In this document: positions 14,335 to 62,901 of the stretch, one piece after another
Layout: the number at the start of each line of letters is the position of its first letter
How positions within the stretch are numbered: position 1 is the first letter of the stretch
Origin: Crossaster papposus
Taxonomy: Eukaryota; Echinodermata; Asteroidea; Velatida; Solasteridae
Reading direction: 5' to 3'
NCBI GenBank assembly: GCA_037893245.1
Contig: JBAIAA010000409.1
Span: 62,001 to 126,000, forward strand
Length of the DNA stretch: 64,000 bases
Notes under the pieces: model-generated
Told to the model about the DNA's origin: nothing
Databases searched by the model: none
What the model saw: the letters and a program-made list of their open reading frames with translations, nothing else
Made by a program: the position numbers and the translations under genes

Positions 14335-14515
14335 CTGTCATTACAGATTAGGCAATGTTTAAATAGAGTGACCAAACATTAAAATTAAATGGTAAATGAC
14401 TAAATTGATTTGTTAAAAGCATAAGAATTTATTTCTCGGACAACAATAGTTGGTGAATTTGAATAAAAAATGTTTTTAAATAGCCAGGAAACCTATAAAC
14501 ATGTATTTCACTGAT
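14335..14515. repeat. Dispersed repeat shared with the peptide-gene introns
   Basis: From GTTTAAATAGAGTGACCAAA to AATAGCCAGGAAACCTATAA the sequence parallels 52635-52790 and 54560-54712. Shared words include AAATGACTGAATT-like, TTTCTCGGAC, GTGAATCTGAATGAAAAATG-like, and AATAGCCGGGGAAACCTAC-like. Confidence 0.65.
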
Positions 14516-15815: not shown

Positions 15816-16345
15816 TAATATTTCCCCTATATGCCCACTATATGTTAATTCAAACAATAAAAATGCACAACTGACAAATGGTCAATTTTCCCTTTAAACT
15901 CAATAAATTCGCCTCTTTTCAGTCTTGCTGTTCAAATGGACAATGCAACACGATACACCAAACTGCTCCTAACAAAAGTACTATGTATAGAAATTTACAT
16001 GGCAAAGTCAATAACGAATTTGAGACACTTTGTTCACATTTTACAAAAAACAACAATGCAATTTGCCTACACTTGACTTTTGCAAAAATAACTATTTACT
16101 GATTAAAATATGTTCACATAAAAGCACCCTTTTTAGGCAAAATTACAAATAATTTTTTCAACCATTATATTTTTGACCTCCCGTGTTACGTTACCAATGC
16201 TGTTTTAATTATGTACAGAAAAATTACACAGGAGGTATGGTACGCGAGGCTCAATGCTTTTAGTTACACAAATAAATGGTCACACGTTTTGAGAACAAAT
16301 TCACACAGTTGAATAAAACACTAGCTCCACTAGAGTCAACAATGC
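15816..16345. other. No gene seen
   Basis: AT-rich single-copy-looking DNA. A 74-codon open frame at 15878-16102 has no protein-like features. Confidence 0.4.
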
Positions 16346-31000: not shown

Positions 31001-34000
31001 CAAAACTTGCAAGCAATGTCAGTTCTACACATATTCAGCTAACATAAAATATGTACAACATTAAATAGGTAATACCGGTAATTGCGGTGCGACGGCTGTT
31101 CTTATAAAAACTCGCATGCTCTCATGAGAGCTGGCCTCAAGAAACAGCCGTTGCAACAGCTTTGGCCGTTTTCCAAACCTCGGCTCTGCATCTGCCCTTT
31201 GGTTTCGTTCATGCAGTTTGGCAATGGTGATGGAGCCATAGCCTCTTTGTCGAGGTTCAGATAAAAAACTTTTGGGTTAAAAATGGTAGTTACCATTGTG
31301 CTGCATAGTGCATTTTGACTGAGAATATATGCCAACATTTCTCAGAAAGTTTTAGGTAAGATTCAAGCATTAATCCAAATAGTAAAAGATGAGAGACATC
31401 CTGTGTGCCTAAAGTTATCTACATGTACATAACAGTTCCTTGATCAAAATAAGCAAGTGTTTCAACTAGCGATGGTGGACTTTTTTTTAAGCCAGCAGCC
31501 AGTGCCCTTTTTCCCACCTAGCCATGAAGCAGGTTGAGATAAAACATCTGGTTTTTGTTTGGATAAATTTGACCCAGGCAATCCAAGGTTATGACTGTTT
31601 AAGCTGAGCCTCGTGTGGGGTAAAACCACAGGGAATTGTTGCCTAGCAACCAATACAACTTTTCTCAATTTTAAAGGGTCTTTTGTTTATACATAGAGCA
31701 AGGCCAGAGCATTCAACCTTTAACACAGTGCTGTTTTGTCTGTTTTCTTTCAGTTAAAGTAGTTTCATCGTGTACAAGCCAAGATTTGCCAAGATAAAAA
31801 CAGTGGAAAATGGTCATAAATCACTTCTCAAGGCCATGGATAGCTCTAATGACACATTATAGAATTACGTAACTTTGGGCCTTTTCAGAAAATTGTATCT
31901 ATAAAAATATCTGGCCGATTTTTCTCAATAAAATGAATGTAGAAAAAGAACAGAAATTGAATATTACCTTAAAAAACAACGAAAGTGACCGATATTCCCA
32001 TAATTATAATCCAACAACGATCCATGCAAACACAGTGAATCCAAACAACAACGCGTGTACATACATTATGTACAGTGTACATGTACACCATTGGTCTGTA
32101 GTCGAGTATACGGAACAGACGCGGCGTGCCCACGCGCACACGTGCATTGTGTGAAAATTGCGCAACGTGGCGAGTCTGGCACCGGCTCCGTTGCCGGTGT
32201 GCGCATTTAGAGGCCGATCACAGACTGGCTGAAACACAATTTAGTAAACTCTCTTTATCTCACAGTGCCTCTCAATCTCAAGGTACGACCTATACACGAA
32301 CGGATAGAGCATGACATAAACCAATGATATATGGGGGAGGGCGTACTACCTAGGAATCTGAAGTTGTTCGCTTTTTAAGGTTTTCTTTTGTTTTAAGACC
32401 TAATTAATATTCATATCGCGTTTAGTACGCATATGCTAGTTACAGAATCATGTTTTTGCTTTAATTTAAGACTAAAACTGTTAAAATTGATTGGGAAACG
32501 GCAATGCCCTCCCGATCTACAAATGGAGCCTCTCATTGGCCCACTTTTGGAGCCGCGCGGAGCGGGAAATTTAAAAGTCGATTTTTGCTTTTTGGGCCAT
32601 TTTCGGACGATGTTTTTGCCTCAATTTTATATCATATTTTAATCAAAACTGCGGGAAAGTGTAAAAAAGTGAAAGTTTTGTATGTGCCTTGTGTGGAATT
32701 ACTTGTAACTGTGTTTCCAGAGAGAAATAATTTATTTTTGACACAAAATATGACATTTGACGTCGTTTTTACCCCCTTTTCGATCCGAGGGCGCCCTTCG
32801 TTTCGTCCAGGCTATTTCAACCAACTAAAGCGTGTCCGAATATGTGGCCTCGTATATTAGGAGCTCGCACAACTCGACCGGTGGGACAATTCGACCGGTG
32901 GGACAATTCGACCGGTGGGACAACCCGACCGGTGGGACAACCCGACCGGTGGGACAACCCGACCGGTGGGACAACCCGACCGGTGGGACAACCCGACCGG
33001 TGGGACAACCCGACCGGTGGGACAACCCGACCGGTGGGACAACCCGACCGGTGGGACAACCCGACCGGTGGGACAACCCGACCGGTGGGACAACCCGACC
33101 GGTGGGACAACCCGAGCGGTGGGACAACCCGAGCGGTGGGACAACCCGACCGGTGGGACAACCCGACCGGTGGGACAACCCGACCGGTGGGACAACCCGA
33201 CCGGTGGGACAACCCGACCGGTGGGACAACTCGACCGGTGGGACAACTCGACCGGTGGGACAACTCGACCGGTGGGACAACTCGACCAGTGGGACAACTC
33301 GACCTACTACTTACCATTTTTTTCATGAAAATCATTCGGTCTCAAACTGAATTGGCATGCAGGTTCACTTACCAAAAATTTTGACTTTTTCATGGTTCCG
33401 TCTGACGTAATTTGTCTCTAAATCTGCGACCTATAATTTTTTTTCGCGATAAAATCAAAATAAATATGGCGGAACACGTCTGCGCAGGCACGAACAGCTC
33501 ATCATAGTACAGAACAACAGAGGGTGCTCTGCTACTGCTAGTAGGCAGTTTCAGTGAAATTTAATGCAGGTTATTTTTTCTCTGACAAGATGAGGTCTGA
33601 TAAGGTGTAATCTAAGAAGTAAAAATCAATTTAAAATTTTGAGATCGGATTTTTGGTTGCAGAGATATATCGTTTTTAATGAGCATATGTCGTGCAAAAA
33701 ACGTACCCGAGTTTAAGTTTAATTCTTATGTTTTTCTTTATTTCAGCTACGGCCAAGTTTAATACACAGTCTATGGCGATAGAGGGCGCACTATATGACG
33801 GGCGCCCTCTACTGCTGAATGGGTTTACAAACTGCGGCGCATAGGATTTTTGTGAACGGCAAATTATTGTGAATCAACACAGGATCGGAGCGGCAACGTG
33901 GGGGAAAATGTTAACAGATACAAATTAGATTTGTTAAGTTTTGCAGGCGTTTATGTGAATAAACTTTACTAATTATGTAGATCAAATATCAAATTAAATG

Positions 34001-37000
34001 TACCAGAATGGAAGAAATTAAAGTGTTTATGACTGCACAATTTTCTTTAATTTTAGAGATCATTAATAAAAACTTGAGGATAAAGGCGAGGTACAGCGAT
34101 GATTTTTGTTATACAAAGACAAATTCTGAAAACTAAGTGAAGCTACATTACAATCAAGTTTTCGTTTTACTTTCGTTTTTCGTTTTAAGAATACATTGGC
34201 GTTATTTAAAGATGGGTTTTTTGAAATATTGCTCCATGTCTTTGGATTTGAATTTACCATAAAGTAAATGAAGCCTGTCAATACTTTGATGTAACTCTTA
34301 TTACCAGCATCTTGAATGATGGTGGCTAAACAAATTTTTTTCCCGTCTTTGACTATTTTATTGATTTTTTTGTTTATTTATTTGTTTATGTTTTTGTATT
34401 ACATGTATTGCATGTACTTCTTATTGTAAAATATTTACTTTGATAAATAGTTCACAGTAGTGCCGAAAAGTTGGGGTCGGTCAGGTAACAGAAGCAGAAC
34501 TGTTATTTTCTGTTGGCCTGTTGTGTACGATTAAACATATTTTGTTCCACATTTAAAGTTGATCGCCCGATTTCTGGCCGTTTTGACCCCAACATTTTTA
34601 TTTGAAATTCAAGTATTGGGTATTTTGATGAGGTAAAGAAAATTACAAGCTTTTATTTGAGACATCCCACGAAAAAAACCTGACCATTAAAAGTAAAAGA
34701 ATTTTGTTTAGCGCGAGTGATACTCTCTAGAAATTCGTTCACTTTTGTTTGTTTTTGTTTAATGTTTGGGGTCAAAGATCGGGCCATACATCTTTTAAAA
34801 TAATTTGTTTAATTATACTTACAATCAAGCCATTGATAAGCGGTTGTGACTAAAGATCCCTGATGATCAAGTCGGTTTTTTTAAGATCCTGCAACAAGTC
34901 AAACACCCACTCGTCGTCATCTTCTTCAGCACTGTCATACGTCACAGAGAACTCCGTTTTCACAGTGTCCGTATGTTCTGCCTTGATTCCAATTACAAGT
35001 CCTTTGTACCACGTCTGCTTCCTCTCAGCATCCCAACATTTGTGGTCGATTTTTTTCCCAACAAGTAACTTTGGATTCTTGAGTAGTGCTTCTAGATGCT
35101 GTTTGGAATTTTGGACAGCACGCTTTGTTTTCTCCTTGGCTCTTTTTGCAGCAAGATTTTCTTTCATCTCTGTGAATTTTGATAGACGTTCAGACGAAGA
35201 TGTGAATGTTCGTGTTGTAGATGGTTCCTCTCTGTGTTCATCCCTCTCTCCACAATGGCCAAGCTCTGCAATCTCGATGAGGTTCTCCTTCATGTTTTCT
35301 TTGGAAATTTTCTTTTGTTTGCCATCGACAGTAATTGTTAATTGGTAGAGTTCTCTCCTTGGTGCCTTCACCTGCAGAACCTTTTGGTGAAACTGCAACT
35401 GTTTATGTATAGCTCGCCGAATTTGTTCATCACTTGTCTCTTCCATCTTCTTGTACTCCTGCTCAATTCTCTCTTTACTCCTCCAAAGCCCTCCTTGCTC
35501 ATCAACACTGTCTATCAACTGTAGCCACTCAATTGACTGCTTCCTCTGTTTTTCTTCTCTTTGGGCTTGCTTTCCTTGCCATATTTTCCACTTGTCTTGC
35601 TTTATTTGCGCCATCTTCTCTTTGTATCGTAGCAGCATTCCTGGGGAAACTGATCTGGCTCCTTGCATTAGTTCTTCACGTTTGGACGGCTCCAATTTGT
35701 GTACCCAGTCAGCAGTCTTATTATTCACCCACATTATTAAGACTTCCAAGGTGATAACACGTGCTGAAGGCTTCTGTCGAACAAGCATATCCAATATAGC
35801 AAAATCCCTTTCTCCGATCAGATTTGTACTGGGTACATTTGCGAAGGATTGCTGAAAAGATTGGGTAGGATGCCAATATTTACCACCCGGTAACTGGTCC
35901 TTGCACTGGCGTTCTAGGATTTGAAGTATGGCACAACACATGAGCTCTAATGCCTGGATGCCGATCGCATAGCTGTCCTCATCATCTTCCTCTGCAAACA
36001 GCACATCATAGATTTCATCAACGATAACTGGAACAGACTCAATTGCCGACTTTCCTTCAAGTATTATGACCGCATCATCTTTCCACTCGGTCAATCTTAG
36101 CTGCACTTCATGCAAAATGTTGTTGAGGGAGAGGATATTGTCAGCATTCTTAACAGCTGTCCAGAGTGGTTCGGTTATACATTTATGTACGATGCCAATT
36201 GACCTTAATTCAGCTCTATACACTTTGTCTCCTGCGTCTTCTGCTACCGCCTTCAGAAGATTGTTTGGATCAGGCAGTGCAGTTACGAACTTTCTCAAAT
36301 GATCCAGATGGAAAAATGTAGAGGCCCCACCTTCAAATAGGATATTGGCACGATTTCCAACGTAGTGAATTAGATGGTTGGACACCTCAAACTGATTTTG
36401 AATATACGCCGTAAATGTGTCTTCCACGCCACTTTTATCCGACCCTCTGTGATGGAAGGCCTTGCTGCTTGTTCTGATAAGCCGCCTTACCCCTGATTCG
36501 CTGGACTGGAGTGTGTGTTTGGTTTTACCACCTGCTGCAATGTCCTCGTATGCCTTCAAAACTTTATCCACCTCCTCTGCAAAGTTGATCAACGGGTGCA
36601 TTTTGCAATAGTACGTTGCAAATTGACTACAGGTAGATTTATTGTCGTCTGATAAAGTGTCCCAGTTCTTGACAACCACCGGCAGCAATTCTTCTTTGAG
36701 GATCTTGAGTTTTTCACTAAACTGGGGCATAGTTGGCCCTTGATCGGTCATGGTGCTTTTGATGGTAGTGAAGATGTTGTTGGTCACTTCATCTGTGCTT
36801 GTTGTTGAATCAGTAACACTCTCTGCAAGTTCCCTCACTCTCTCTTTAAATGCAGTAAACACTGCGTCAGTGTCACTTGCTGCCATTTCTGTCAGTCCCA
36901 TCGTCCGAGAGCTTCCATCCGGTAGTGTCACTTGGTAGTTCTGGTACTTTCGGTGAAGTTTAGTCGTCCCATCTCCGTGGATACAATTCCCCAGTGCATC

Positions 37001-40000
37001 TTCAGGACGGCAGGCATTCATCGCAGAAGCAACTTCAACTATCGCCAAGTGATGTGCTTCGACCATGATTCTGGATTTTGTTGCCAGTGACGGAAGTTTA
37101 TCTATGTCTTTATCCGCCAAGTTTTTTAAAACTATACGAATAACATCGTTGACCTTTCTCAGAGAGACATTACAGGCCAATAATTCCATTATTGTCAGAC
37201 GGACATTGTCGTTGTATTTCCCATCCTCAAATGAATGTATTGTTTCGTCTTCATACAGTTCGGCAAGCTGTTCAAGTTCCTTGTTCTTGTTTTCCAGAAA
37301 CTTTACACGCTCTTGTAGACCTTGCAAATCATCTTCGGTGTGTAACTGAGCTTCCCGCCTTTTCTTGTCCTTGGCATACAACAGTTTTCTGTATGTTTGT
37401 TTCTGCTTAGTAGTTGCCTTTCTTGCTTTCGACATCAGATTCTCGCATGCCATTTTGCTCTCAGCGAGTTGTGCCGAACTACATTTCAGTTCCTCCCGTA
37501 GTTCCTCTGCAGTTTTCTGTAAACTGTTTGACTTCGTTGTCAGCGTCCTAATTGTAACATCTCGCCGCTTTATTTTCTTCTTTAAGTTACGTGGGTCCGA
37601 CGCTTCCAGTTTTGCATTTGCTGCCAACCACTTCCTCTCCACTTCATTCAACTCCGTAGCTGCCTTGACATACTTTCGTTTGTACTTTTCCAGATCGTGT
37701 TTTGTCGGGTCAAATTGACGACTGATGGCATCCATTTCGTCAATCAAGGCCTGGTGTTCCGAGGTCAAGTCGTGAACTTTTTTCTGCAGATCGTCAACTT
37801 CCCCTTTCAATATTGTTGTCCCAGGCGTCTCCATTTCAAGCTTCATCTTTTTTTCCAATACCTTTGTTTCCAACTGAGTAACCTTTGTCTCAGCAGCTTA
37901 TAGTTTTCTTTTGGTGCCTCTTGACTGCGTCTGAAGGGTTGCGATGGCTTTCCTCAGTCGTTTTTTGCGGGGTGTGTCCTTGCCTTTAATTAATTGGCGT
38001 TGTCGGATGAGAGGAAATTCTTGTTGGAACAGTTTTTCTCGCTCATCCCGGCGCTGCTGAGGTGTGCGTTTTTTCTGCACCTTTGAATCCTTTGCTACCA
38101 AATTGGTTATGTACTTACTGACGCACTTGATGTCAGCCTCGTCCTTCCCTGTTAGTTTGATGAGGATTCTTGAGAGTGAAGCTAGTGATTGTTGCTGTGC
38201 GGTACAAAGATATCTGTACAGCTCGATGACATGACCATTCAATAATGCCGGTACAGATGGTAGACCAATTTCCTTAGTCAAATGGTCTCTGGTTAAGCCA
38301 ACTTTAGAACAGAAGGACCCAATCGCTGAAGAAGAAAAAAAGTATACAAAATACTATTAATTTTATCACCTACTATCATTATACTTTTGGAAAGTCCAAT
38401 TCTTGTAGATTTATATGATAATATTTTGTTTTGATACCACAAAAGCTGAAATAATTATGGTTATGTGGAAAATGTTTTAAAAATGAAAAGTTACGTCAAC
38501 ACAAGTTTGGAACTCGAAACCTGCTAAATATTTATTGGGACGTGCCATTCTTAAGAAGTGGGGTATAAATGGTGTCGTGTATAGTGTGATTCTTTGACTA
38601 TAGTTCACTTTTCCGCATGCTTCTGCAATTACAATTTCGCAACAGAGCAATAGTTGCAGTTCATAACAAATTTAAACAGTTTGTTATAATTTCTTCTCTT
38701 TTCTACGTTTGATTTAATTGCAAAGTTTGAGAAATGTACACCTTTATTGTGAATGGAATGGCCCAAGTTTAGGCTTTACGGACGAACGCATAGCTCCACA
38801 CAGATTGAGCTAATCCGCTTACTGGGCTCAAGTATAGAGTTTTAGGTACACACAGAATGATTTACCTCGAATTAACAAATTCATATCCCACACACGGCTC
38901 CTAGAATTTGGACAGTCAATGTGGCGGCCGCCACAATTTCTTTCACCCCATGCCCCTTTTTACAGCAAATTAATAAACAATTATAAATTATTTTCTTAGT
39001 TTTTCAAAATTTAAATAATAATTGTATAAGAAAATGGGAATACAAATAATATTTACAATTCTTATTTCCGGCCTCGTCCGGTTGCTCTTGGGCAGTCGAT
39101 GAAGCGGTGGATGGTCCAGGTTCCTGTAAAACACGTTGTATATTAAACTATAGGCTAGGTATTTTGTAAACGTAACAATTAGCTAGCAGATTCGCTTTTT
39201 AGACGTTAGTGTTTATTAATAACGTTTTACTTTTTTATATTGCACCAAAATACAAGATGTCTAATGCAGTTTAATTTTACAAAATGTACCAATTAAACCA
39301 ATAGAAACACGGATTCAAACAAACGTAGCATCAAAACAGTTTAACTGAAAAGATAATTGCTCAGGGCATTTGCTTCAGCCGTTACGTTGTTTCAATTAGG
39401 CCTGGAAAACAGATAATAAATATTAGTTTCTTTTGACTCAAGATGTACACTAGTTATTATCAAGTCAGAACTTGGAAATTATCAAAACAACAAGAGTGGG
39501 CCTAACCAAAACTAAAAAAACACAATGATCTTACATGCAGTTACAGCCCAGCGCTGAAGATAACCGAAGATTAAAGTATTTCTAACCAATTAACATTTCG
39601 TCTTGACGCTTGTGATTGCTTATAGCCTGGCACTTGCCTCTGATAAATAAATAAAAAGGGTTTGTTACGTTCCGAGACATAAACAAAGGCTAGCCTAGTC
39701 ATCGGCTTCTATTGACTAAAGGGATTAACACCCATGCACGGCTTGGACCACCATGCCATCGAGTGTACCTGGTACACGATGGTGACTGTACAGTGAATGG
39801 CACGACTGACTTAAAAGCAATTTTTCTTCATAAAAATACTACAAGTTAAACGTAAAAGTCAATAAATCAAACTAAAATAAGTTTACTAAAAATGCCTTGT
39901 GAGTAAAACGAACGGCAAACTTATCGCAACACACGCCCTCTTGTGGTGTATCGTGGCGAAAACACGAAGATGTACGAAGTACATTCGTGACTTTAGTTAG

Positions 40001-46159: not shown

Positions 46160-46370
46160 ATAAAAATTCCAAAACCGAACCCCCAAAATCTTTAAAACCA
46201 CAAGCAAAACAAAGAAATCATCCAAACCACAAATTGGTAAAAAAAAAAATGTTTGAAATGACAACCCCCCCCCCCCCCCCCCCACAAAAAAGACAAGAAA
46301 AGTAAGAGTCCCTTTCAAAGGGGACTAAAAAACTCCCCATCTACAAATTGGTAAACAAATTGTGGAAATG
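46160..46370. repeat. Poly(C)-containing interspersed repeat, copy 1
   Basis: CCAAACCACAAATTGGTAAA, a C19 run (46265-46283), AAAAAGACAAGAAAAG, then CATCTACAAATTGGTAAACA. It matches 47945-48080 in the same orientation and 49780-50060 in reverse orientation, where the run appears as G19. Confidence 0.8.
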
Positions 46371-46860
46371 ACTGGGAAACTTTAGGGTTTGTACAAGTTG
46401 TCAATGCCTGGAAAAGTTCACGAATAATAATTATGTTCATAATCTTGCCCCTCAGATCTCGTCCAAACTCCTGCGTGCAAGTAAGTGGATTACGGCGTGT
46501 GATTCCAATTATTGCTTTGTACTTAATATCTGGTACCCGTATAAAGAAGTCATTACAATTAATAATCAACAGGTATTTCAAATTACTAGTAATCCACGCC
46601 CTGAACAAAGCCCTGAACAGAGTAATGCCTAAACACACAGCCAAATTTGACAGACAGGAAGATAGCGAGGAAGACAGTGACGAATAAAGACTTAACAAAT
46701 AATAATAAGTTGACGACGATAAGTTGCGAAGAAATGTATTGGGGGAAAACGGACAAAGGCTAACGAAAACAGGGTGTTCCAAAGAGAAATGGTCTCAATA
46801 AAGCAACAATGTTATAATTTCTCTATTTTTATTTGTTAGCGTTGTCTTCTTCTTACGGTT
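46371..46860 (+). other. Transcript-like unit of unknown nature, copy 1
   Basis: About 490 bp repeated at 48075-48580 with many substitutions, but with indels that are mostly multiples of three (for example 3 nt near 46572 and 6 nt near 46652). One plus-strand frame ends LNKALNRVMPKHTAKFD, then an acidic QEDSEEDSDE-stop. Another frame ends NPRPEQSPEQSNA-stop. An AATAAA (TCAATAAAGCAACAATG) follows at about 46798. It looks like the 3' end of an mRNA or a processed copy. I do not recognise the protein and cannot tell which frame, if any, is used. Confidence 0.4.
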
Positions 46861-47944
46861 TAACAATCAGGAAAGCCTATACATTGTACTCTCAGGATAT
46901 GATTAATGTTTGGACTTTGGTCTTTGGACTTTGATTAATGTTTGGACTTTGCATTCTGAACAGTGCACCCATGTAGTTATATCGACCGACTACTTTACAG
47001 ACGGGAGAAAAACACAACTTGCAATCGTCCACACATCTCGTGTGTTTCTCTTTTGAATTGTATCCCTCCTACACGGGTCACAAAATTAACTCCTATTTAA
47101 TTTATTTATTTATTCCACAATGATTTGTACACAAAAATATGAAAGAAATATTGAAAGACAACTATCAGAATACACAAAGTTGAACCGAGTAAAATAATCA
47201 ATTCAGCAATCGGCCATTAAGTAAAATACTGCAAATTGTTATGTCGACAATAGAAAGTATCTGTTAATCTACTTTAACAGCTTACGTTTTTCCTTTTGTT
47301 AATTCGCCACAAACTCAGTGCGTAACACCGGTTTACTCAACTGTATAAATATTTGGTTATATAACATTTATGTATAAAAGTACTGGGCCTTTGGGTACTC
47401 GGGGTCTGTGTCCCTCAACGTGCCACCGGGTTGCTCGCGGCCATAAGCTTGTGTATATTTGTGTTGTCAACTTGTAGAGTGTTACTTATTATTAAATTAT
47501 ATATTATATGTGGTTGCCACAATCTATGTTTGCAAGCTGTGTATTTCTTGTCGTGTCGATCCCTTTGGGTGTGGCGGCCTTGCCATGTTGGGCTACCGCG
47601 CACAACCATAACAAAATTGAAATCTTGTTGCGATTCCTTAATATAATAGAAAACCTTTATCTAGGACAAAGCTAGACTATACACTTGTTGAAAATATTGT
47701 TTTAATATTCATCGACATTGCAAATGTTATACAAAACGGACCTACTGTTTTCAGGTTCTTCGACCCTCTTTTTGACATGTATGTTGACATACTTGGTAAA
47801 CAGACGAAATAAACAGTGAATAGTCGGACAGCTTGAAACAAATGCGTTTGTTGTCTTTTGCGGTTAAATTCTAATCCAATCTACATTTCCTTAACAATTA
47901 TCGATAACGTCATCTACAGCGTCATCAAAGTACCTCCCTACCTT
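46861..47944. other. No gene seen
   Basis: AT-rich DNA between the two transcript-like units. Short chance frames only. Two GTTTGGACTTTG(G/C) repeats lie near 46909-46945. Confidence 0.4.
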
Positions 47945-48074
47945 ATCAGACACCCCCCCCCCCCCCCCCCAAAAAAAAAAAAGAAAAAAAAAAGAAGACA
48001 AGAATTAAAAGAATCCTTTTGTAAGGAGACACAAAAAACAATCTGCAAATTGCTAAAAGAATTATGGAAATGAC
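47945..48074. repeat. Poly(C)-containing interspersed repeat, copy 2
   Basis: A C18 run (47953-47970) followed by an A-rich stretch (AAAAAAAAAAAAGAAAAAAA), AAGAATTAAAAGAATCCTTT and CAAATTGCTAAAAGAATTAT. Same order as copy 1. Confidence 0.7.
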
Positions 48075-48580
48075 TGGGAAACTTTAGGGTTTGTACAAGT
48101 TTTCAACGCCTAGAAAAACTAGCAAATACTATTTTGATCATCTTGCTCGTCAGAACTCGTCCAATCTCTTGCGTGCAAGTAAGTGGATTACGGCGTGGGA
48201 TTCCAATTATCGCTTTGTACCTAATCCTTGGTACCGGCATACAAAATTCAATACAATTATTAATCAACAGGTATTATTTCAAATTACTAGTAATCCATGC
48301 CCTGAACAAAGCCCTGAACAGAGTAATGCATAAACACACAGCCAAATTTGACGAACTATCCCAGGAAGATAGCGATGAAGACAGCTACGAATAAAGACTT
48401 AACAAATAACAATAAGTTAACGACGATAAGTTGCGAAGAAATATATTTGGGGGAAAACGGACAAAGACTGATGAAAACACGGTGTTCCAGAGAGAAATGA
48501 TGTCAATAAAGCAACAATGTTATACCTTCTCTATTTTTATTTGTCAGCGTTGTCTTCTTCTTACGGTGTATCAATCAGGA
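48075..48580 (+). other. Transcript-like unit of unknown nature, copy 2
   Basis: Paralogue of 46371-46860. The corresponding frame ends LNKALNRVMHKHTAKFD, then ELSQEDSDEDSYE-stop at about 48394, and the alternative frame ends NPCPEQSPEQSNA-stop. The same AATAAA context occurs (GTCAATAAAGCAACAATG near 48503). Both copies keep the two frames open, so selection cannot be assigned by eye. Confidence 0.4.
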
Positions 48581-48827
48581 CACATCGTATATACTTACAG
48601 CGTATGATTAATTTAAATTTTATAACTCTAATCTAACCAGTTCGAAACAATTTGGAGGTTTGTTTTTGACAAACGTAGAAACGTAAAACATAGCAACAAT
48701 ATGTAATTGTTTTGGGACAAACTGAGGTATTTTTGTTCTATTTTGCCACCGTTTTACCTATAGCCCAGCTGCTATCACGGTCCATAATGTTAACCACTGA
48801 GAAGGATCGGCTAAGGTGTCTTTTAGG

Positions 48828-49194: not shown

Positions 49195-49425
49195 CGCGCT
49201 TGTGGTCGGCTGTTATTGGTTTAAAAAAAAACATGGGCGAGACTATTACTTGATTGGTCCATCTTTGTTATAAGCATCTTGTAATTTTCATCCAATCACG
49301 GACGTGTGCTGATTCCGTCCTCGTGCTATTGGTTCTTTGATACCACTGTCGTAAGCTCTGCACCGTCCACTTTAGCACGCCCATAAAGACAGAGTATATA
49401 AAGTCCGGTCCGTACTCCGAAGCGA
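49195..49425 (+). promoter_or_regulatory. Promoter of the secreted-peptide gene
   Basis: A consensus TATA box, TATATAAAG, lies at 49395-49403. Upstream are repeated CCAAT elements in both orientations: GTTATTGGTTTA near 49211, TGATTGGTCC near 49251, ATCCAATCAC near 49290 and CTATTGGTTC near 49327. Transcription is expected about 25-30 bp below the TATA box, near 49425-49430. The density of CCAAT boxes suggests a strong, probably tissue-restricted promoter. Confidence 0.75.
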
Positions 49426-49493
49426 CATTCCAGCGACCGTCGTCAACCAGTCAACTTATCTCTACTTCCGACGAACGACAGCACCAACTTCTT
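49426..49493 (+). other. Non-coding first exon of the secreted-peptide gene
   Basis: From about 30 bp below the TATA box to a strong donor, ACTTCTT|GTAAGTAG at 49493/49494. No ATG occurs in the exon. The 5' boundary is inferred from the TATA distance; the 3' boundary from the donor consensus. Confidence 0.65.
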
Positions 49494-49779
49494 GTAAGTA
49501 GCTTACTGCATGAGTATTTTTAATCAGCCGATCGCAAATGGTTTTAACCGAACGAAACAAGGCGATCTGTATAACTTGTCGAACGCTCAAAGCTTGCTGT
49601 ACAGACTTGTCACGTATACAATACAATTTAGCAAAACCTGTGTCGATCAGACGAACCCAAATTCAATGTTAAATTAAATTATTTATTTTATATGATTGCG
49701 ACTATGTATGTCCGTCCGTTCGTCCCCACTGACCGTTTTCCAAACCACAGCTTAGGCTCCGTCTCTGGCTCCATCACCA

Positions 49780-50060
49780 TTGCCAAGATGATGTATTTTT
49801 CTGAAAACGTTTCCCCATCATTTTCACAATTCTGTTACCAATTTGTACATATGGAGTTTTGTTTGTTGTGCCCTCTTACAAATGGATTCTTTGTTTTTAT
49901 TCTTTTATTCTATTTTTGTTTGGGAGCGGGGGGGGGGGGGGGGGGTTGCTTTTTGTTAATATCGTTTTGGTAATTTCCAACATATTCTTTTATAAATTTG
50001 TGGTTTGGAGGATTTCATAGTTTTGTTTGTGTTTGCAAGATTTTCGGGTTTTTTTTTTTT
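49780..50060 (-). repeat. Poly(C)-containing interspersed repeat, copy 3 (inverted)
   Basis: Inside the first intron of the peptide gene. Reads in reverse relative to 46160-46370: ACCAATTTGTACATATGGAG, G19 (49928-49946), TTTATAAATTTGTGGTTTGG. A T-run of about 22 follows near 50050. Confidence 0.8.
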
Positions 50061-51204
50061 TTTTTTTTTTTTAATATTTCTTAACCAATGGCCATGTGGA
50101 TGATTCCTTTTGTACTGTACACAGAATGTGCTTTGGTTAATTCAAAAGTATCAAGTAAATAACCCATCGACATGTTCTCCAGCCTTGATATGGCTGATAC
50201 ACAATGACAAAACTACATCATTTTGAGGCCTACATTTTATTTCAGCATCTGTTATTGCAGTCCGACTTTCTTTCTTTTTAGCTATTTTTTTGCAATAGGC
50301 CTACTGCTACGAACGCGTGAGGATCACGACGGTGCGTTCGACTAACCCAGCTCTCGTGGCTATACCCCCACACCCCACCAGCCGAGCGGGGTGACAGTGT
50401 TTGATTAAAGGGAGGCCGGGTGACGGCGGGACGCTCATCAATGTGTCTTTTTAGTCTTACACCAAGTCTTACGCACATGTATTAGGGAACAGACCTGAGA
50501 TATCCACACAAACATCTTTTAGTTCCACATAGCCATACTGAGCCACGCAGCGCTTTTACGAGCTTTCTTCTAATAGCTCTCAAAGCCCTGCGGACACTGG
50601 GCAAGATCCGTGGTCATTTGACGCAAAGATTCATGCGCTCAATCAGAGCCTCCGTTACAAACAGACCATGGCATGCGAACGAACCTCGACCCTAGGAATG
50701 AAATTGCAGTTTTTCATTCATAAAACGCGATACTTATTCCTGGGTCCGAGGTTGGCTCACAAACAAACAAGATGGGCTTTTTCACCCGATCCTCCCGAAG
50801 GTCTTCCGTAATGCGCATTTCTATTGGTCCATTCGCTTGGACATCTGAGGTGTTCTCACAAATTTACATTTTCCCACGTAAAAATTAAAATTAATGGGAT
50901 TTTTTTTAAATTAACGTATAGAACTTGAAATAAAGCTTTGCTATTATATTTTTATAAGAAACATAAAATACTGAAAAGCTACGTAAACGCCAATAACATT
51001 AGGTATAGGTGGTAGAAATTGTCATTTTACCAGGGGTGGATGTTCATATCATGTATTGACCAACTTGTTTAATGGTTGCTGCGAATGTCCACAGGGTTTG
51101 AGGGCGATAATTCGAAAATCAACAGCCCGTTAAACTCTGCGTGGCTCAGGATGCACATAATCATGTTGCTTTTCTTGTTCTCTGTTTGCCGCATCTTCAA
51201 GCAG
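50061..51204. other. Intron 1 of the secreted-peptide gene; nothing else seen
   Basis: AT-rich intron. A GC-richer part at 50310-50430 (CCCACCAGCCGAGCGGGGTG) has no coding character. The acceptor for the signal-peptide exon is CGCATCTTCAAGCAG at 51204. Confidence 0.5.
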
Positions 51205-51270
51205 TCAAGATGAAGGTGTTTATCTGTTTGGCCATTCTGGTGTGCCTGGGCTCTGTCCTTGCCAACAAAG
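51205..51270 (+). CDS. Signal-peptide exon
   Basis: Acceptor TTCAAGCAG|, a five-base leader, then ATG at 51210. Encodes MKVFICLAILVCLGSVLANK plus one base; donor AACAAAG|GTAACA. Hydrophobic core FICLAILVCLGSVLA, with likely cleavage after the LA. Confidence 0.85.
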
Positions 51271-54200
51271 GTAACATATCCCATTTTAATTTATCAGCTT
51301 GAACCCTCCACAGAAGCCTAATTGATCGTTTTGTCCCCGAACATAATCCAACGTGAATTGAATGAATTTGAGCGAACAATTCCTAAAATCGATTGAACAA
51401 AGACGAATTCAATCATTGCATTGTGTAGATGATCATCCGGTAAGACGAACTTGATTGAAAATTGAGGGTTTTTTGGGTCGCAAAAGTGAACCATGAAACT
51501 CGTTCTACACAAGAATAACGTCCGGTTTAAAGGAGGGTTGTGTGGATGTTTATATCCTACTTTTAAATGCTGTTTCCGATTAACATCAGTTCGTTTAAAA
51601 CTCTTTCTGTAGCCCAATTGGTGCTTCCAGGACATATAATAGTCTTCCTTCATTCCAGTAAAGATGGTTGTCATAATCTAACGTTAATATTCTTTTTTAT
51701 TCAAATGCCAGCACTAACAATTAAAGTCAAATAAATTCTCCCTCTCTCTGTCTTTTCAGCCGACAAGATTGATGTGAAGCAAGGTCGTAAGTTTCTGCAG
51801 TCGATTTCTTAAAAATTTCCCGATTAATCAGATTTAATGTTCGCAGTAAAATAAACTTCCGAAGTTACAGAAGCGTATTTAGGTCACAACCCAAAATATC
51901 CAGGTCCACTGTTCCGCCCGGACGAAATAGTGATGCGCCGGGCGGAATGGTGATCCGCCCGGCCGGGATAATTTGTTTTGGTTGTGTCGTCGATATGGTT
52001 CCGTACGCATGGCGATGTCGTGCGGTTAAACTAAATATTTGAATCCGACTGCTTTTTTTGGCAGCCTGTGAATCTGAACTTTCGCCGCAGTATCAGTGCC
52101 ATTCAGGCTATCAATGCACCTATCATCTTTTGTTTTCATGCTGATGTAATCTGCACACACAGGATATGCACAGCACCCAGCTAAGCCTAATATAAACTGA
52201 ATCCAAGTTGCACTGTTTCCTTGTCAAATCAGATCAGGTGTTCTGAAAACGTAATTAATATTTCTAATTCTATCGAAGGTCGCTCAATTTCTTACCACAA
52301 CAAAACAACAAAAACACCCGGATTTAAAACGGTTGGTCACCCTTTTTTAAACACAGATTGTAAAATATTCGTCAATACAGATCAAATTCACCTGAGCTGT
52401 TGCCGAAAGGCAGCATGCACGGATCGAATTGGTCTGATATCAATCAATTTAAAACTTATATTAAATCAAGTATAGTCTGGTGTGTGCTGGAGTCAAGCGC
52501 TCATCAGACTAATCTATATTGAACATAATTATTGTTTTTAATGTATCGATATAAGGCAAATTTGACCTCTGAATGCTGATTTTTGGCAACAGCTTAGAGG
52601 AATTTGTTTTGTAATGACGAGTATATTACCGACCCGGTGTTTAAAAAATGTGACCCGAACGTTGAAATTGAATGATAAATGACTGAATTATTGTTTGGTA
52701 AAAGCGTGTGAAAAATTTCTCGGACGAAATTGAATGTTAGTGAATCTGAATGAAAAATGTTTTAAAATAGCCGGGGAAACCTACACTGTATACTTACTTT
52801 CTTCTAATTATTATTTTTCACAGCGTGTTATTTTGATCCAAACGCGTGCCCATACCCAATGGAGTGCAATTATGAACATGGTTTCTGCGAGTATCCACAC
52901 AAAAGAGAAAATGTTGAAGGTAAATTTCAATTCTTTACTCAAAATAGACTTGACCCTTTTTGGTTTGAACATTGCGTTGTGGGTTTGTGGATAACAATCA
53001 TTTCCTGTCATTATGGCCTTGCCTATTAAACAGTGAGTGTTTCTTCTTTGACTTACCTTGAACTCAATGGAGTAAAGATTTTGTTTAAGTAAAATCATTG
53101 AAATGCAAATTTGTGTCGAATTTCCTCTTAATGTTCAATCCATTGCGTTAGTTGAAACTTGATGTCTTCTATGTTTTACTTGCTTTGATAATTTAAATAC
53201 ATAATACACCAAGCAAACATATTTGCTGTTTTAAATGGACTCATTGTGCTCGAAAATACGCCCCAAATTCATCCTAAAGAGCTTGGTCTCAGTAAAACAA
53301 TACCCATTTATTCAGTGTTGTTAAGTCGGTGGGAATTAAATTGTAGGCCCATATGCATTATCACGACTACACCCAAACAGCCCGATTTTTTTGGGTCGCA
53401 GAAGTGGACCCAAACCTCACCGTTCTACACAAGAAAAACGACCGGTATTCAAAGGAGGGTTGTGTGGATGTTTATATCCTACTTTAAAATGCACTTTCAG
53501 ATTAACATCAGTTCTTTCAAAACGCTTTCTGTAGCCCAATTGGTGCTTCCATGACATTACTCTCCCTTTATTCCAATAAAGATGGTTGTCATAATCTAAC
53601 GTTAATATTCTTTTTATTCAAACGCGAGCACTAACAAGTCAAATAAATTCTCCCTCTCTCTGTCTTTTCAGCCGACAAGATTGATGTGAAGCAAGGTCGT
53701 AAGTTTCTGCAGTCGATTTCTTCAAAATTTCCCGATTAATCAGATTTAATGTTCACAGTAAAGCGAACGTTCGATTTTACTGAAGCGTATTTAGGTCACA
53801 ACCCAAAATATCCCGGTCCACTGTTCCGCACGGACGAAATAGTGATGCGCCAGGCGGAATAGTGATCCGTCCGGCCAGGATAATTTGTTTTGGTTGTGTC
53901 CTCGATATGGTTCCGTATACAATGTACCGACACACGGCGATGTCGTGCGGTTAAACTAAATATTTGAATCCGACTGCTTTTTTTGGCAGCCTGTGAATCT
54001 GAACTTTTGCCGCGGTATCAGTGCCATTCAGGCTATCAATGCACCTATCATCTTTTGTTTTCATGATGATGTAAATCTGCACTCACAGGATATGCACAGC
54101 ACCCAGCTAAGCCTAATATAAACTGAATCCAAGTTGCACTGTTTCCTTGTCAAATCAGATCAGGTGTTCTGAAAACGTAATTAATATTTCTAATTCTATC

Positions 54201-55289
54201 GAAGGTCGCTCAATTTCTTACCACAACAAAACAACAAAAACACCCGGATTTAAAACGGTTGGTCACCCTTTTTTAAACATAGATTGTAGAATATTCGTCA
54301 ATACAGATCAAATTCACCTGAGCTGTTGCCGAAAGGCAGCATGCACGGATCGAATTGGTCTGATATCAATCAATTTAAAACTTATATTAAATCAAGTATA
54401 GTCTGGTGTGTGCTGGAGTCAAGCGCACATCAGACTAATCTATATTGAACATAATTACTGTAAAAATGTATCGATATAAGGCAAATTTGACCTCTGAATG
54501 CTGATTTTTGGCAACAGCTTAGAGGAATTTGATTTGTAATGACGAGTATTACCGACCCGGTGTTTAAAAAATGTGACCAAACGTTAAAATTGAATGATAA
54601 ATGACTGAATTATTGTTTGGTAAAAGCGTGTGAAAAATTGTCTCGGACGAAATTGAATGTTAGTGAATCTGAATGAAAAATGTTTTAAAATAGCCGGGGA
54701 AACCTACATTGTATACTTACTTTCTTCTAATTATTATTTTTTTTCACAGCGTGTTATTTTGATCCAAACGCGTGCCCATACCCAATGGAGTGCAATTATG
54801 AACATGGTTTCTGCGAGTATCCACACAAAAGAGAAAATGTTGAAGGTAAATTTCAATTCTTTACTCAAAATATGTTTTGCTTGCTTTGCTAATTTTAATA
54901 CATAATACGCCAAGCAAACAGATTTGTTGTTTTAAATGGACTCATTGTGCTCGATAATACGCCCCAATTTCATCCTAATGAGCTTGGTTTCAGTAAAACA
55001 ATACATAGGCCTATAACCTCTTGCATTTACGGAAAAGACGGGTTTTTTTCCAACCCATTTATTTAAAGGAGGGTTGTTTGGATGTTTATATCCTACTTTA
55101 AAATGCACTACGATTAACATCATTTCTGTAGCCCAATTGGTGCTTCCATGACATTATACTAATCTCCCTTTATACTAATGTTGGTCATAACGTTAATAAT
55201 TCTCTTTATTCGAACGCACACTACAACCAGTAAAAGAAATTATCACTCTCTCTGTCTTTTCAGCCGACAAGTTTGGCGTGGAGCAATAA
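51210..55289 (+). CDS. Secreted cysteine-repeat peptide precursor (6 coding exons, 110 aa)
   Basis: Exons by consensus and phase: 51210-51270, 51760-51786, 52824-52919, 53672-53698, 54750-54845 and 55264-55289. All inner exons are phase 1-1, so any number can be joined in frame. The product starts with the signal peptide MKVFICLAILVCLGSVLA. It then has two copies of a 41-residue unit, ADKIDVKQGP plus CYFDPNACPYPMECNYEHGF and CEYPHKRENVE, and a short tail ADKFGVEQ-stop. Each module has four cysteines (C-x6-C-x5-C-x6-C), suggesting two disulfides. HKR or KR could be a processing site between modules. The two copies of both exons look identical while the introns differ, pointing to recent duplication or conversion. 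Expected to be secreted. I recognise no named family; spacing resembles EB-like or other small Cys-rich modules. Skipping of 55264-55289 would instead lead to the exon at 55583. Confidence 0.75.
51760..51786 (+). CDS. 27-nt microexon A, copy 1
   Basis: TCTTTTCAG| ... AAGGTC|GTAAGT. Completes Ala and encodes DKIDVKQG plus one base. Identical to 53672-53698. This linker precedes each cysteine module. Confidence 0.8.
51912..51975 (+). promoter_or_regulatory. Intronic hairpin between microexon A and exon B
   Basis: TTCCGCCCGG (51912-51921) pairs perfectly with CCGGGCGGAA (51938-51947), followed by ATCCGCCCGGCCGGG. The same block recurs, decayed, at about 53821-53885 and 55419-55482. Position suggests an RNA structure that could influence the choice between exons B and C. 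Function is inference. Confidence 0.5.
52065..52144 (+). CDS. Possible alternative terminal exon B, copy 1
   Basis: A good acceptor (GACTGCTTTTTTTGGCAG) followed, in the phase required by microexon A, by CESELSPQYQCHSGYQCTYH, LLFSC and a stop. Cysteine pattern C-x9-C-x5-C-x7-C resembles the constitutive module (C-x6-C-x5-C-x6-C). Joined to the upstream exons it would give a 55-residue secreted peptide. Not proven to be spliced. Confidence 0.5.
52824..52919 (+). CDS. 96-nt cysteine-module exon C, copy 1
   Basis: TTTTTCACAG| ... GTTGAAG|GTAAAT. Encodes CYFDPNACPYPMECNYEHGF, CEYPHKRENVE. Looks identical to 54750-54845. Confidence 0.85.
53672..53698 (+). CDS. 27-nt microexon A, copy 2
   Basis: Same sequence, acceptor and donor as copy 1. 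Confidence 0.8.
53990..54066 (+). CDS. Possible alternative terminal exon B, copy 2
   Basis: As copy 1 but reads CESELLPRYQCHSGYQCTYH and LLFS-stop, losing the last cysteine by a change to TGA. Possibly decaying, which argues that copies 1 and 2 of B may no longer be used. Confidence 0.4.
54750..54845 (+). CDS. 96-nt cysteine-module exon C, copy 2
   Basis: Same sequence as copy 1; acceptor TTTTTTTTCACAG|, donor GAAG|GTAAAT. Confidence 0.85.
55264..55289 (+). CDS. Microexon A, copy 3, with in-frame stop (terminal exon?)
   Basis: TCTTTTCAG| then ADKFGVEQ-stop. It still has a donor-like TTTC|GTAAGT four bases after the stop. Either the true C terminus, with a following 3'UTR intron, or a diverged copy skipped in favour of 55583. 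Confidence 0.55.
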
Positions 55290-55582
55290 TTTCGTAAGTT
55301 TTTGCAGTCGATTTATTCCTAATTTCCCGAATAATTAGATTTAATGTTTAGAGTAAAACAAACTTCCGATGTTACGGAAGCGTATTTAGGTCACGATCAA
55401 AAATGATCCGGCCCATAATTCCGCCCGGGCGAAATAGTGATGCGCACGGAGTAAAAGTGATCCGCCCGGCCGGGATAAATTTGTTTGGTTTTGTCCTCGA
55501 TATGCTTCCGTACGATGTACCGACGCATAGTGATGCCGTGGGGCTAAACTATATTTCAATTCGATTGCCTAATTACCGGCAG

Positions 55583-55665
55583 CCTGTGAGGTGAATGTCT
55601 CGCGGGAGTGGGACTGCCCTCCTGAATATTCTTGCTTCGATGGCCAATGCTATTTTTTGGAGTGA
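55583..55665 (+). CDS. Alternative terminal exon B, copy 3, intact cysteine module
   Basis: Acceptor AATTACCGGCAG|, then CEVNVSREWDCPPEYSCFDG, QCYFLE-stop. Spacing C-x9-CP-x4-C-x4-C is a well-formed small Cys-rich module. Phase is compatible with exon C copy 2 (skipping 55264-55289), giving a precursor with three modules, and also with the signal exon directly. The acceptor has a weak pyrimidine tract. Confidence 0.5.
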
Positions 55666-56309
55666 ATGGCTGGTGTTCAAAGTAAATTTCATTAATACAA
55701 AAAACCCTGATTTTAGTGGTTAGTGTAACCGATGGGCGCGCTCCGAGCGAATAATTCGTTCACAAACGAAATCCGTATTGTTGAGCGCCCTCTGCATCAT
55801 ACGTTTAATATACATGTACGCACATAGCTAGGTATATAATTCAATGAATTATTTTCAATGTCAAGCTTTGATCAAGCTCTTAATGTTTGGCGCCAGAAAC
55901 ACGAGGTTGGGCATGTCTTTTTGAATCTGATTATATATTTTTCTTAATTCGTGGCTTTGGAGAATTTTTTTTTAAAGGGAAATCAAGTCCGAAATTTCAT
56001 TAGGCTCAAAATATTTTTCCTTTCCTACTTTTTAAGTCCGAAATCTCATAGCAAATCTCAAAAAAACACCGCGGGCCGCAATTAGAAAAAAAAGGGGGGG
56101 GGGGGAGTTGTTATTACCAAAACGGTGCCGATCTTTTTCTAAAATATAGACTTTTAGGGGTTTCCAAGAAAAATGGATTTGATTTCAGTTGACTTACCTT
56201 GAAACTAATGGAATAATAACTTACTAATTTTGCACAATTCCTTTTGTAGCTTTATTAATTATGAATAATAATAGTAATATTTGTTTTATTCTTCTTGTGT
56301 TCATTTCAG
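55666..56309. other. No gene seen
   Basis: AT-rich; a poly(G) of about 13 near 56094. Part of the 3' region of the peptide gene if the distal UTR exon is real. Confidence 0.4.
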
Positions 56310-56575
56310 ATTCCAAAATACTAACAGCCGTGGGATGGTCAAGTCGCAATTATTAATTTAATTAATTATTATACGGTGTAGGGTTTACGTTTTATTTTGT
56401 CTTTGCCTTGATTGTTAAATATTAGTTAAAATGAGACTGTTTACACCCACACAAAGTGTCACTATACATTGTAGACACTAAGTTACAAGTTGGCAAAAGT
56501 AATCACAATTTTTCAAATTATCAGTTTAACCTGGTGCAAAGCCGACTCTAATTAAGATAATAAATATGTGGTTGG
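56310..56575 (+). other. Possible 3'UTR exon and poly(A) signal
   Basis: Acceptor TTGTGTTCATTTCAG| at 56309, then ATTCCAAAATACTAACAGCC. AATAAA lies at 56559-56564. It would fit a spliced 3'UTR of the peptide gene. Inferred only from signals. Confidence 0.4.
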
Positions 56576-57298
56576 CCGGTATTAAACGTACGTGTAAATC
56601 CGGCTCATTGGCCTGGGCATTAACGCGTCCAGGTCCACGAGTCGGTTTTTTTCCCCATTCATAAATACCATTTCGGTCAAAATATCAAACATTTTGGTCC
56701 AAAAGTTAAAACAAGTCAAAAATTTAAACTTTCCAACCATTTTGTTTTACAATTTCTGTTCATTATTTTCAAAACCCCCTCCAGTTAAATAATGGAGCAT
56801 CCAGCTCGCTAATAAGATGTAAACAGCTCTTTTTATGGGTATATGCGCGCGCGTAGTGCGCACTGCGCGATGTTGCGCAGATGCAGCTGTGGCGCGCGAA
56901 TGCGTTGTGAATTTTGGACCATAAAATAACTGACTATTTTATCCTCCGTTTAAAACCGGCCACGTGATGGGTTCTCGACCAATAGGAATGTGTATACTGT
57001 CTAAGTTATTTATGAATAGAAAATTAACAACACTTGATAGGTTGTAACGACATTTTGAAGTTCACTGTGGTTTTATTTTTCTGTCACAAATTACCCCTAA
57101 TGGGAAACTGCTTCCATTTATCGCATCTATCTATCACGTTTATATTCTGGGTGGTGAGTCTTAATTTCCACGTATAGTAATCTCACTTCTAAGATTGCTG
57201 TTGAATAAAATGATGTTGGTATGAGTTCATGCGACTAAAATTATATCTTTGTATATAGCCTGTCATTATTTGTCACATATTAGGCATAACAAAAAAAA
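56576..57298. repeat. Dispersed repeat fragments (ACCGGCCACGTGA family)
   Basis: AAACCGGCCACGTGATGGGT and CTCGACCAATAGGAATGTG at about 56950-57000 match 22755-22800 and, more loosely, 30690-30730 (CCGGCACGTGATCGAGTCTC). The GTATTAAACGTACG part near 56580 is another fragment. No gene. Confidence 0.55.
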
Positions 57299-60366: not shown

Positions 60367-61900
60367 CATTTATATTAGCAAAATTTATGTCTTATTTAAA
60401 ATCTTTTGTTTTTGCAATGTTAGAAGCGGGTATACATTGTAATTTAATATTTACAATAATTTAATGCCAAAGAAACTATGCCAAAAACATCAAGCAAAGA
60501 TAAAACAAACTTTATTTACTGTTATAATAAATCTCAATGGTTTGCCCATTGAACATTATGCCAAAGATGATGGTAGTTATCATCTTCACTATGTTGGCCA
60601 TTTTTGTTGATGTTTTGACTAATTGCTAAACATTTATTATTGTATTACCAACCCTAATTGTTGTCATTTCTTCAATCTGTATTTATGTACCTGTAATAGC
60701 TGATGTAATTAAAATAAGTTTTAACAATTTCAGGGTTTAATTTAACAATTTTATTCAAGCCATATAACATCAACAGGGTCATGGTATATTAATGTAAGCG
60801 ATACAATTCAAGTTTCAGATAAAAATTGCAGTTTCTTTTATAAACCAACCTCACAATACAGATATAAATTATTGTAAACATTTTTATTTATCAATGTTAT
60901 TGTTATCAATAAATTTTAAACAACGACTTCATTTGTCGCTTGTTTTAATTTTTTTGGCTGTATACATTGTATTATGCAGGCAATATTATTATTTTTTTAA
61001 TCAGTCCACTGTTAAAAAAAACCCTGAATAGCAGATAAATCCTTTTCGCTTGAGCTTACAATTAAAAAAATACACAAAAAACAACTGCGTATTGAAATGT
61101 GCATGAACTACACGTTACCACGAAGCCTTTTTCAATGACGTCATTTTCGACCAATGAGGGCGCAGAAAGACTATGGACTGTCATGGCGGGATGTTCCGTT
61201 TGTTAATTTATTGAGAACGTTATAATTTTCTGCGCCCTGACTGGACTAAGTTAAAATCAACCCCAAAACTACAGTTTTGTGATAGAATATGAAATTATCT
61301 TTAACATCAGTGTGAAATTGGGTTGTGGCCGCTGCCAGAAAATGAACAAAATTCGTCCTTTTTTAAAGGTCAATTTGTTGGTTCGGGAGCTTTTTTTACG
61401 TTATAAATTTCACCCTCTAAATGTCATATAATTTCCAATCTGATTTGATAATATAACAAATTGTTTCCTTATCCAAAAGAAAATATATATAATATTGACA
61501 GCCAGTGAATAAAACCCAAGTTTCGGACCAAATTCCAGGCGTTGTCGCCAGCTCATTAAGTATTCAAAAACAAGGTCACGCACAAAGTGCCATGCATAAA
61601 TCGCACATAAAAGGAACGGCTTTTCAGTGCGCTGCGGACTGACTGTTTAAAAGTGCCCGCTGAAAGTTATGCAACTTAATTAGTACTACGCTGGCGGCGC
61701 TGTTTACCTAGCTTATTACAAAACGCTGACAGCGCAGTTTCACAAGCTTTGCCATGCGCGCGACATGCAATGCATACAAATGCATGCATACAAATAATAC
61801 ACATCACATAAATAGGGTCGGGACCTTAAAGCATAAGTCTGGCTGGTCACATGGAGTTTGATGGTAGATAAAGTTCTCTTAATTAGTACATCAGTCCAGT
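60367..61900. other. No gene seen
   Basis: AT-rich DNA after the pseudogene; several AATAAA words (for example near 60910). Between 61540 and 61760 GC content rises, with TGCATACAAATGCATGCATA simple repeats near 61770. No coding character. Confidence 0.4.
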
Positions 61901-61904
61901 CTGT

Positions 61905-62901
61905 GATATCTTACGTCAGCACGACGTCAAATATCACATGTATGCTGACGACATTCAGATTTATTTGGATTTTGATCCCGCCATTCCTAACGATGCAGCA
62001 TGCGCTTTGTTCAGGTTGTCAAATTGCATTAGGTGTATCCAATCCTGGATGATTGTAAACAAACTTCAACTTAACAATGATAAAACTGAGTTTTTTATTG
62101 CCTCATCTTCTCATCATCAGAAACGTTTAAATCACCTCACTCTTACCATCAACAACACCACAATCAAGCCATCCCCAACAGTGAGAAATCTGGGCGTTAC
62201 ATTTGACACTACTATGTCAATGACTCCTCACGTCAACAATGCATGCAAATCAATCAATTACCACTTACGGAACATATCTAAGATTCGCAAATATATTGAC
62301 TCAGACACATGCCATGCTGCTGCCCGAGCTCTAGTCCTGTCACGGCTAGACTATTGTAATTCTCTCTTCAATGGCATGAAACAATCGGATATCTGTCGCC
62401 TACAAAAGCTTCAAAACAATGCTGCCCGTATCACACTCACACAACCTAAACATTGTAGTGCATCACCACTTCTTCGGCAATTACACTGGCTACCTGTTCA
62501 AAAACGAATCATCTTCAAAACGGCTGTGAATATGTACAAGGCACTCTCAGGCACGCATCCACAATACATTATACATTCACTTGACCTCAGTAACCCCAAC
62601 CGACGTGGTCTCCGCTCGGAGCATAACTTAAAAGTACAACGCACATTCAAACTTGCAGGTGATAAGGCTTTCTCTGTGGCTGGACCCAGATGCTGGAACT
62701 CAATACCTCTCAACATTCGTCATTGTAACTCTGTTCACCAGTTTAAACGTAAACTCAAATCATATCTGTTTTCATCCTAGGTTTGCTCTCATCTTTCATT
62801 TTGCAATTTCATCTTTTTCTGTTTTCGTGGAGTTGTTCTCAAGCGCATCGAAACCTTTGGAAAAATGCGCTTTATAAATGCCATTATTATTATTATTATT
62901 A
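61905..62901 (+). mobile_element. 5'-truncated CR1/L2-type LINE, 3' end of ORF2
   Basis: An open frame from about 61905 to the stop at 62778-62780 begins inside the reverse transcriptase at ILRQHDVKYHMYADDIQIYL, which contains the YADD catalytic motif. It continues through NKLQLNNDKTEFFI, VRNLGVTFDTTMSM, RLDYCNSLFNGM and LQKLQNNAARI, with LHWLPVQKRIIFK and RCWNSIPLNIRH near the end, all typical of the C-terminal part of CR1/L2 ORF2. The 3' end GCGCTTTATAAATGCCATTA followed by (ATT)n is the family's tail. Roughly the last 290 codons are intact. The 5' part, endonuclease and most of the RT are absent, as usual after target-primed reverse transcription. Confidence 0.9.

Follow-up and report, generated by a model that had tools for sequence, protein, structure and literature searches.

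The 64,000-nucleotide (nt) window of the Crossaster papposus contig JBAIAA010000409.1 analyzed in the current study probably harbors, at about 49.4-56.6 kb on the + strand, a protein-coding gene that specifies a small secreted precursor and whose splicing is predicted from the sequence. Our best reading of this locus, which we hold tentatively and with almost even confidence, is a precursor from which a convertase would release small acidic beta-hairpin peptides, with a layout nearest to that of the KARTESH (KASH1/2) and CHUPA peptides found in the coelomic fluid of the starfish Asterias rubens. If expressed, the gene would represent a compact natural case of new disulfide peptide making in animals: its 7 kb show tiny exons of symmetric phase, duplications of recent and of older date, and module exons that were apparently discarded. 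It would also place a precursor with tandem modules next to the injury peptides of starfish, which have a single module in the available text of PMC11891777.

Gene model and predicted precursor

The promoter and splice sites of the gene can be followed along the + strand, grading each splice site by simple consensus or pyrimidine counts against all AG or GT sites of the window. A TATA box read from the sequence (TATATAAA, 49395..49402) precedes a non-coding exon 1 (49420..49493, start approximate) with the donor CTT|GTAAGT after 49493, which agrees with seven of nine consensus positions, a count equalled by 3.4% of the GT sites. The signal-peptide exon (51205..51270, ATG at 51210, coding part 51210-51270) encodes MKVFICLAILVCLGSVLA|NK, with the signal peptide called by eye; its acceptor is weak, being matched in pyrimidine richness by 19% of AG sites, and a second AG lies just upstream. 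The 27-nt exon A1 (51760..51786) encodes the linker (A)DKIDVKQG(P) and the 96-nt exon B1 (52824..52919) encodes the four-cysteine module PCYFDPNACPYPMECNYEHGFCEYPHKRENVE with a Lys-Arg (KR) site, both in phase 1-1, and they are followed by exons A2 (53672..53698, 27 nt) and B2 (54750..54845, 96 nt), of the same sequence as A1 and B1, respectively. For pyrimidine content, the acceptors of A1 and A2 belong to the best 0.1% of AG sites and that of B1 to the best 9.6%. Among GT sites, the A donor is ordinary (top 17%) and the B donor, with 8/9 consensus matches, lies within the top 0.3%.

The reading frame closes in exon A3 (55264..55293), which encodes (A)DKFGVEQ and then TAA at 55287-55289, with a GTAAGT donor 4 nt beyond the stop. 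Because so short a distance separates the stop from the donor, a probable 3' terminal exon at 56310..56580 (end approximate; AATAAA at 56559), whose acceptor is among the best 1.3% of AG sites, can follow without the stop being premature under the decay rule. Entered in phase 1 from B2, the same exon would encode DSKILTAVGWSSRNY and a stop. Altogether, the coding exons are bordered by AG and GT, all coding junctions are in phase 1 and the frame comprises 110 residues, in agreement with the first-pass annotation, which had placed the TATA box, the non-coding exon, the signal-peptide exon and the A and B exons at these positions and had described a secreted-precursor gene in which four-cysteine modules are encoded by duplicated phase 1-1 exons, an arrangement that forms a frame predicted to be spliceable.

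A Lys-Arg site lies behind each B module, four residues past the last cysteine, so that cleavage there would not disrupt the module; the predicted products are two peptides, of 37 and 39 residues, plus a tail of 12 residues. In the proposed pathway, the signal peptide would be cleaved first and a prohormone-convertase-type enzyme would then cut both Lys-Arg sites, releasing the two near-equal acidic peptides and the tail. Two disulfides per peptide would close around a C-terminal beta-hairpin bearing Cys3 and Cys4, and the products may serve outside the cell as humoral or epithelial effectors or signals, in the way of the coelomic-fluid injury peptides KARTESH and CHUPA of starfish. Moreover, unequal crossing-over between repeat units could alter the number of modules with the frame preserved, since internal exons of both types, A and B, have phase 1-1.

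Further module-like stretches and history of the array

Besides the Lys-Arg sites, our analysis added to the first-pass annotation a third copy of the repeat unit and three exon-like stretches, here called C, so that its two-module array stands as regards the two B modules and is extended by an older copy and the C stretches that it had overlooked. Stretch C1 (52065..52145) encodes PCESELSPQYQCHSGYQCTYHLLFSC followed by a stop, may be a relic or an alternative terminal module exon, and has a weak donor, matched or bettered by 42% of GT sites; C2 (53990..54070) is a near-copy of C1 with a stop in place of the fourth cysteine codon; and C3 (55583..55681) encodes PCEVNVSREWDCPPEYSCFDGQCYFLE followed by a stop, has a length compatible with phase 1-1, and shows a poor acceptor, equalled in pyrimidine richness by 52% of AG sites. 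C lies between A and B in copies 1 and 2 and downstream of A3 in copy 3, and each C stretch starts directly behind an AG, in the phase demanded by A. The array thus holds five module-like stretches (B1, B2, C1, C2, and C3), with all three C stretches ending in a stop. When C3 is aligned with B, the two run end to end to a common donor with a single 3-nt gap.

Within the region, the + strand holds four matches to a four-cysteine pattern whose middle loop is fixed at five residues (B1, B2, C1 and C3). In all four, an AG stands exactly two bases ahead of the first cysteine codon; none of the nine other matches, three elsewhere on the + strand and six on the whole - strand, has this AG. At least two AG-preceded matches occurred in 0 of 300 dinucleotide shuffles, a result to be read knowing that the pattern was written after the modules had been seen and that B1 and B2 are duplicates, which leaves two or three independent matches. 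Judging by C1 and C3, the array probably once had an older last module of the C type, closed by a stop. It is also conceivable, albeit quite unlikely, that the locus works as an exon cassette array (A-C-B / A-C-B / A-C) in which every exon can be entered in phase 1 and splicing or copy number would pick either the B framework, read through and processed, or the terminal C framework, yielding single-, double- or triple-module precursors (for example, skipping of A3 would join B2 in frame to C3), with the number of units varying among individuals.

The repeat units tell of one recent and one older duplication. Copy 1 (51469..52946) and copy 2 (53387..54872) are 93.7% identical by blastn, and across their core (51524-52946 in copy 1) 1358 of 1409 aligned bases agree (96.4%), with 32 extra gap columns; the 3.6% difference falls within the allelic range of heterozygous marine animals, which makes the number of units provisional. 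Copy 3 (55060..55700, end approximate) contains A3 and C3, and no exon B was found in it; its identity to copies 1 and 2 is 76.6-78.2% up to 55589 in gapped blastn and 72% ungapped over 282 nt. The copies of the block had been described as apparently identical, which holds for exons A (27/27) and B (96/96) and not for the block as a whole. Furthermore, windows free of differences are frequent in the core of copies 1 and 2 (668/1415 at 27 nt, 47%; 181/1346 at 96 nt, 13%), and the identity of the A and B exons is therefore expected without selection. Accordingly, we rejected it as a sign of selection or constraint.

The C exons behaved differently: identity was 29/51 between copies 1 and 3 and 27/51 between copies 2 and 3, against 227/276 in the preceding intron (binomial 2e-5), and the first three cysteines were kept between copies despite this divergence. 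Either the module changed fast while retaining its cysteines, or alignable sequence simply ends here. The ratio of nonsynonymous (dN) to synonymous (dS) divergence was about 0.8 for C1-C3 (dN 0.61, dS 0.78 on about 10 synonymous sites) and 1.0 for C2-C3, values that do not show positive selection on this exon.

The C-B intron carries a palindromic (MITE-like) element at 52328-52655 and 54254-54585, with inverse matches inside copy 2 as well as from copy to copy, so that it was probably inserted before the last duplication. The adjoining segment 52638-52783 recurs at 14356-14495.

Relatives, known systems and competing readings

The failure of the first-pass annotation to name a family was borne out by searches of Pfam, solved structures and a set of 5.8 billion proteins, none of which gave anything above cut-off. 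The precursor had no match up to E 10 in the protein set (1055 candidates), and a three-form alignment drew no candidates from it. The same set returned, for a 1015-residue open reading frame (ORF) elsewhere in the window (34853-37897, - strand), 19 relatives among 7994 candidates scored, and all seven with a readable name were echinoderm (Strongylocentrotus, Lytechinus, Anneissia, and Amphiura), at 45-55% identity, in indirect agreement with the echinoderm origin of the window; since echinoderm proteins are thus present in the set, the lack of matches is meaningful for close relatives and less so for distant ones. No Pfam family exceeded the cut-off for the precursor, nothing was found for the 31-residue B module alone, and a phage collection searched as a null control contained no match. 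At E 10, C1 matched no PDB chain and C3 matched seven (E 0.79 and worse), six of which are C-type-lectin-like proteins aligned over 14-18 residues; we took the matches of C3 as chance. The KASH2 structures 8V2M and 8V2U were not among the PDB matches at E 10 for the precursor, B, C3 or C1. The module search suggested earlier yielded no homologue in the protein set. In structure prediction, AlphaFold2 single-sequence models of B (mean pLDDT 80.0) and C3 (73.2) each showed one hairpin, on residues including Cys3 and Cys4.

The available text of PMC11891777 establishes that echinoderm precursors with a signal peptide, an acidic stretch, a dibasic site and four cysteines exist. KARTESH and CHUPA have four-cysteine mature peptides of 28-30 and 35-48 residues, respectively, and share with the present precursor their echinoderm origin, signal peptide, acidic region, predicted convertase cleavage and four-cysteine mature peptide, a likeness of layout. 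They differ in having a single mature region per precursor with the cleavage site ahead of the module, and the passages of that paper on these peptides mention no tandem exon array. KASH2, in which Cys I pairs with III and II with IV, is described there as having a disulfide-directed-hairpin (DDH) fold; passages of PMC4942781 print a different disulfide pairing for DDH. The loose arachnid DDH spacing quoted from PMC6468893, C-x5-9-C-x2-[G/P]-x2-C-x6-19-C, fits B and C1, with no sequence match. The first module stands behind NKADKIDVKQG, without the dibasic pair that separates acidic region and module in KARTESH and CHUPA. C3 falls outside the DDH spacing, and the nucleotide identity of B and C3 is weak (41/96), being equalled by 38/1000 shuffles and 50/1000 random pieces of the region.

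Duplicated cysteine modules are not without precedent. In the openly licensed literature, judged mostly by title or beginning of the abstract, no report of a tandem four-cysteine exon array in echinoderms was recognized ("Kartesh" in the text seen of PMC13409769 is a field station, not a peptide). As far as the available text of PMC4527844 goes, progranulin already provides near-identical tandem modules whose number is altered by exon duplication. The spacing of cysteines 8, 10, 11 and 12 of granulin A (2jye) equals that of B, but B has four of the 12 cysteines and no vicinal CC pairs. Membership in the granulin family was rejected, as the 12-cysteine Pfam module PF00396 matched neither the precursor nor B and the similarity outside the cysteines was equalled by 456/20000 shuffles for granulin A and 1574/20000 for granulin-2. 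Bivalent spider ICK toxins also gained two cysteine-rich domains by duplication, in their case inside one exon according to the portion of PMC13172734 that treats them, whereas whole phase-symmetric exons were duplicated here.

Among the competing readings, a neuropeptide or peptide hormone precursor, with repeated dibasic-flanked peptides released by neurosecretion and acting on receptors, survives best and is nonetheless unlikely. Repeated peptide copies are known from echinoderm precursors such as the TRH-type ones (passages of PMC4772807; see also PMC5627052), and a KR site lies behind each B module. However, tandem four-cysteine copies appear in none of the 11 relevant passages of the starfish survey PMC4772807, there is no amidation glycine before KR, and no relative was found.

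A defence peptide, either antimicrobial or a toxin-like effector, is rather improbable, even though the greater divergence of exon C than of its preceding intron, with three cysteines kept, resembles that of fast-evolving effectors and the spacing is DDH-like. The predicted peptides are acidic: with histidine left out, the two B peptides have net charges of -3 and -6, ENVEA-C3 one of -7 and linker-C1 one of -1, which makes a cationic defence peptide less likely; in addition, the dN/dS ratios are no proof of positive selection and homology may simply fade at the exon.

We give little credence to a structural role in mucus, matrix or skeleton for the two-module protein left uncut, with its KR sites unused. 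The acidic modules with six aromatic residues each would suit such a role, and progranulin, itself a chain of modules, is active in its intact form according to the available text of PMC4527844, but KR lies precisely where a cut spares each B module.

It is improbable that the locus is decaying or non-functional, with recent exon-block duplications in a dying gene. The in-frame stops in A3 and C2, the lack of a selection signal between copies and the lack of relatives would be expected of it; against this, the TATA box, the splice borders, the 110-codon frame over six exons and the polyadenylation signal are all intact.

Finally, B contains C-x6-C-x5-C-x3-H, as do CCCH zinc fingers of the tristetraprolin type, and could be a metal-binding module rather than a disulfide peptide. 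The weak matches are consistent: both solved-structure chains at E 10 or better for the precursor (E 0.76 and 1) and all four for B alone (E 0.11-0.74) are CCCH fingers, and the Pfam DUS3L CCCH finger reached E 0.12, so that this reading, rejected as a family assignment, was kept as a rival; the B-alone result raised its odds slightly, and it is still very improbable. It is set back by a profile score of 12.8 bits against the curated cut-off of 30 bits, the absence of a Pfam match for B alone, the signal peptide of a secreted precursor, the lack of histidine at that place in C1 and C3, and a fourth cysteine left over.

Other features of the window

Upstream of the gene lies a tandem pair (46286-46907 and 47991-48612), 84% identical, with a + strand ORF that ends in an acidic tail (EDSDE/EDSYE) and has 3- and 6-nt indels inside. 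Rfam and tRNA scans of the window found one tRNA-like element, outside the gene: a tRNA-Ile-like sequence at 13597-13670 (- strand) with anticodon GAT, which is unusual for a nuclear animal gene and is possibly a tRNA-derived repeat. The 1015-residue ORF is transposon-like by look and has no Pfam domain. Of 10 ORFs of the window examined besides the gene, 9 gave no Pfam domain at E 0.01. Minisatellite arrays at 15387-15818 and 32829-33384 are open in several frames, and a reverse transcriptase fragment (Pfam RVT_1, E 2.3e-7) occupies 61887-62780 on the + strand.
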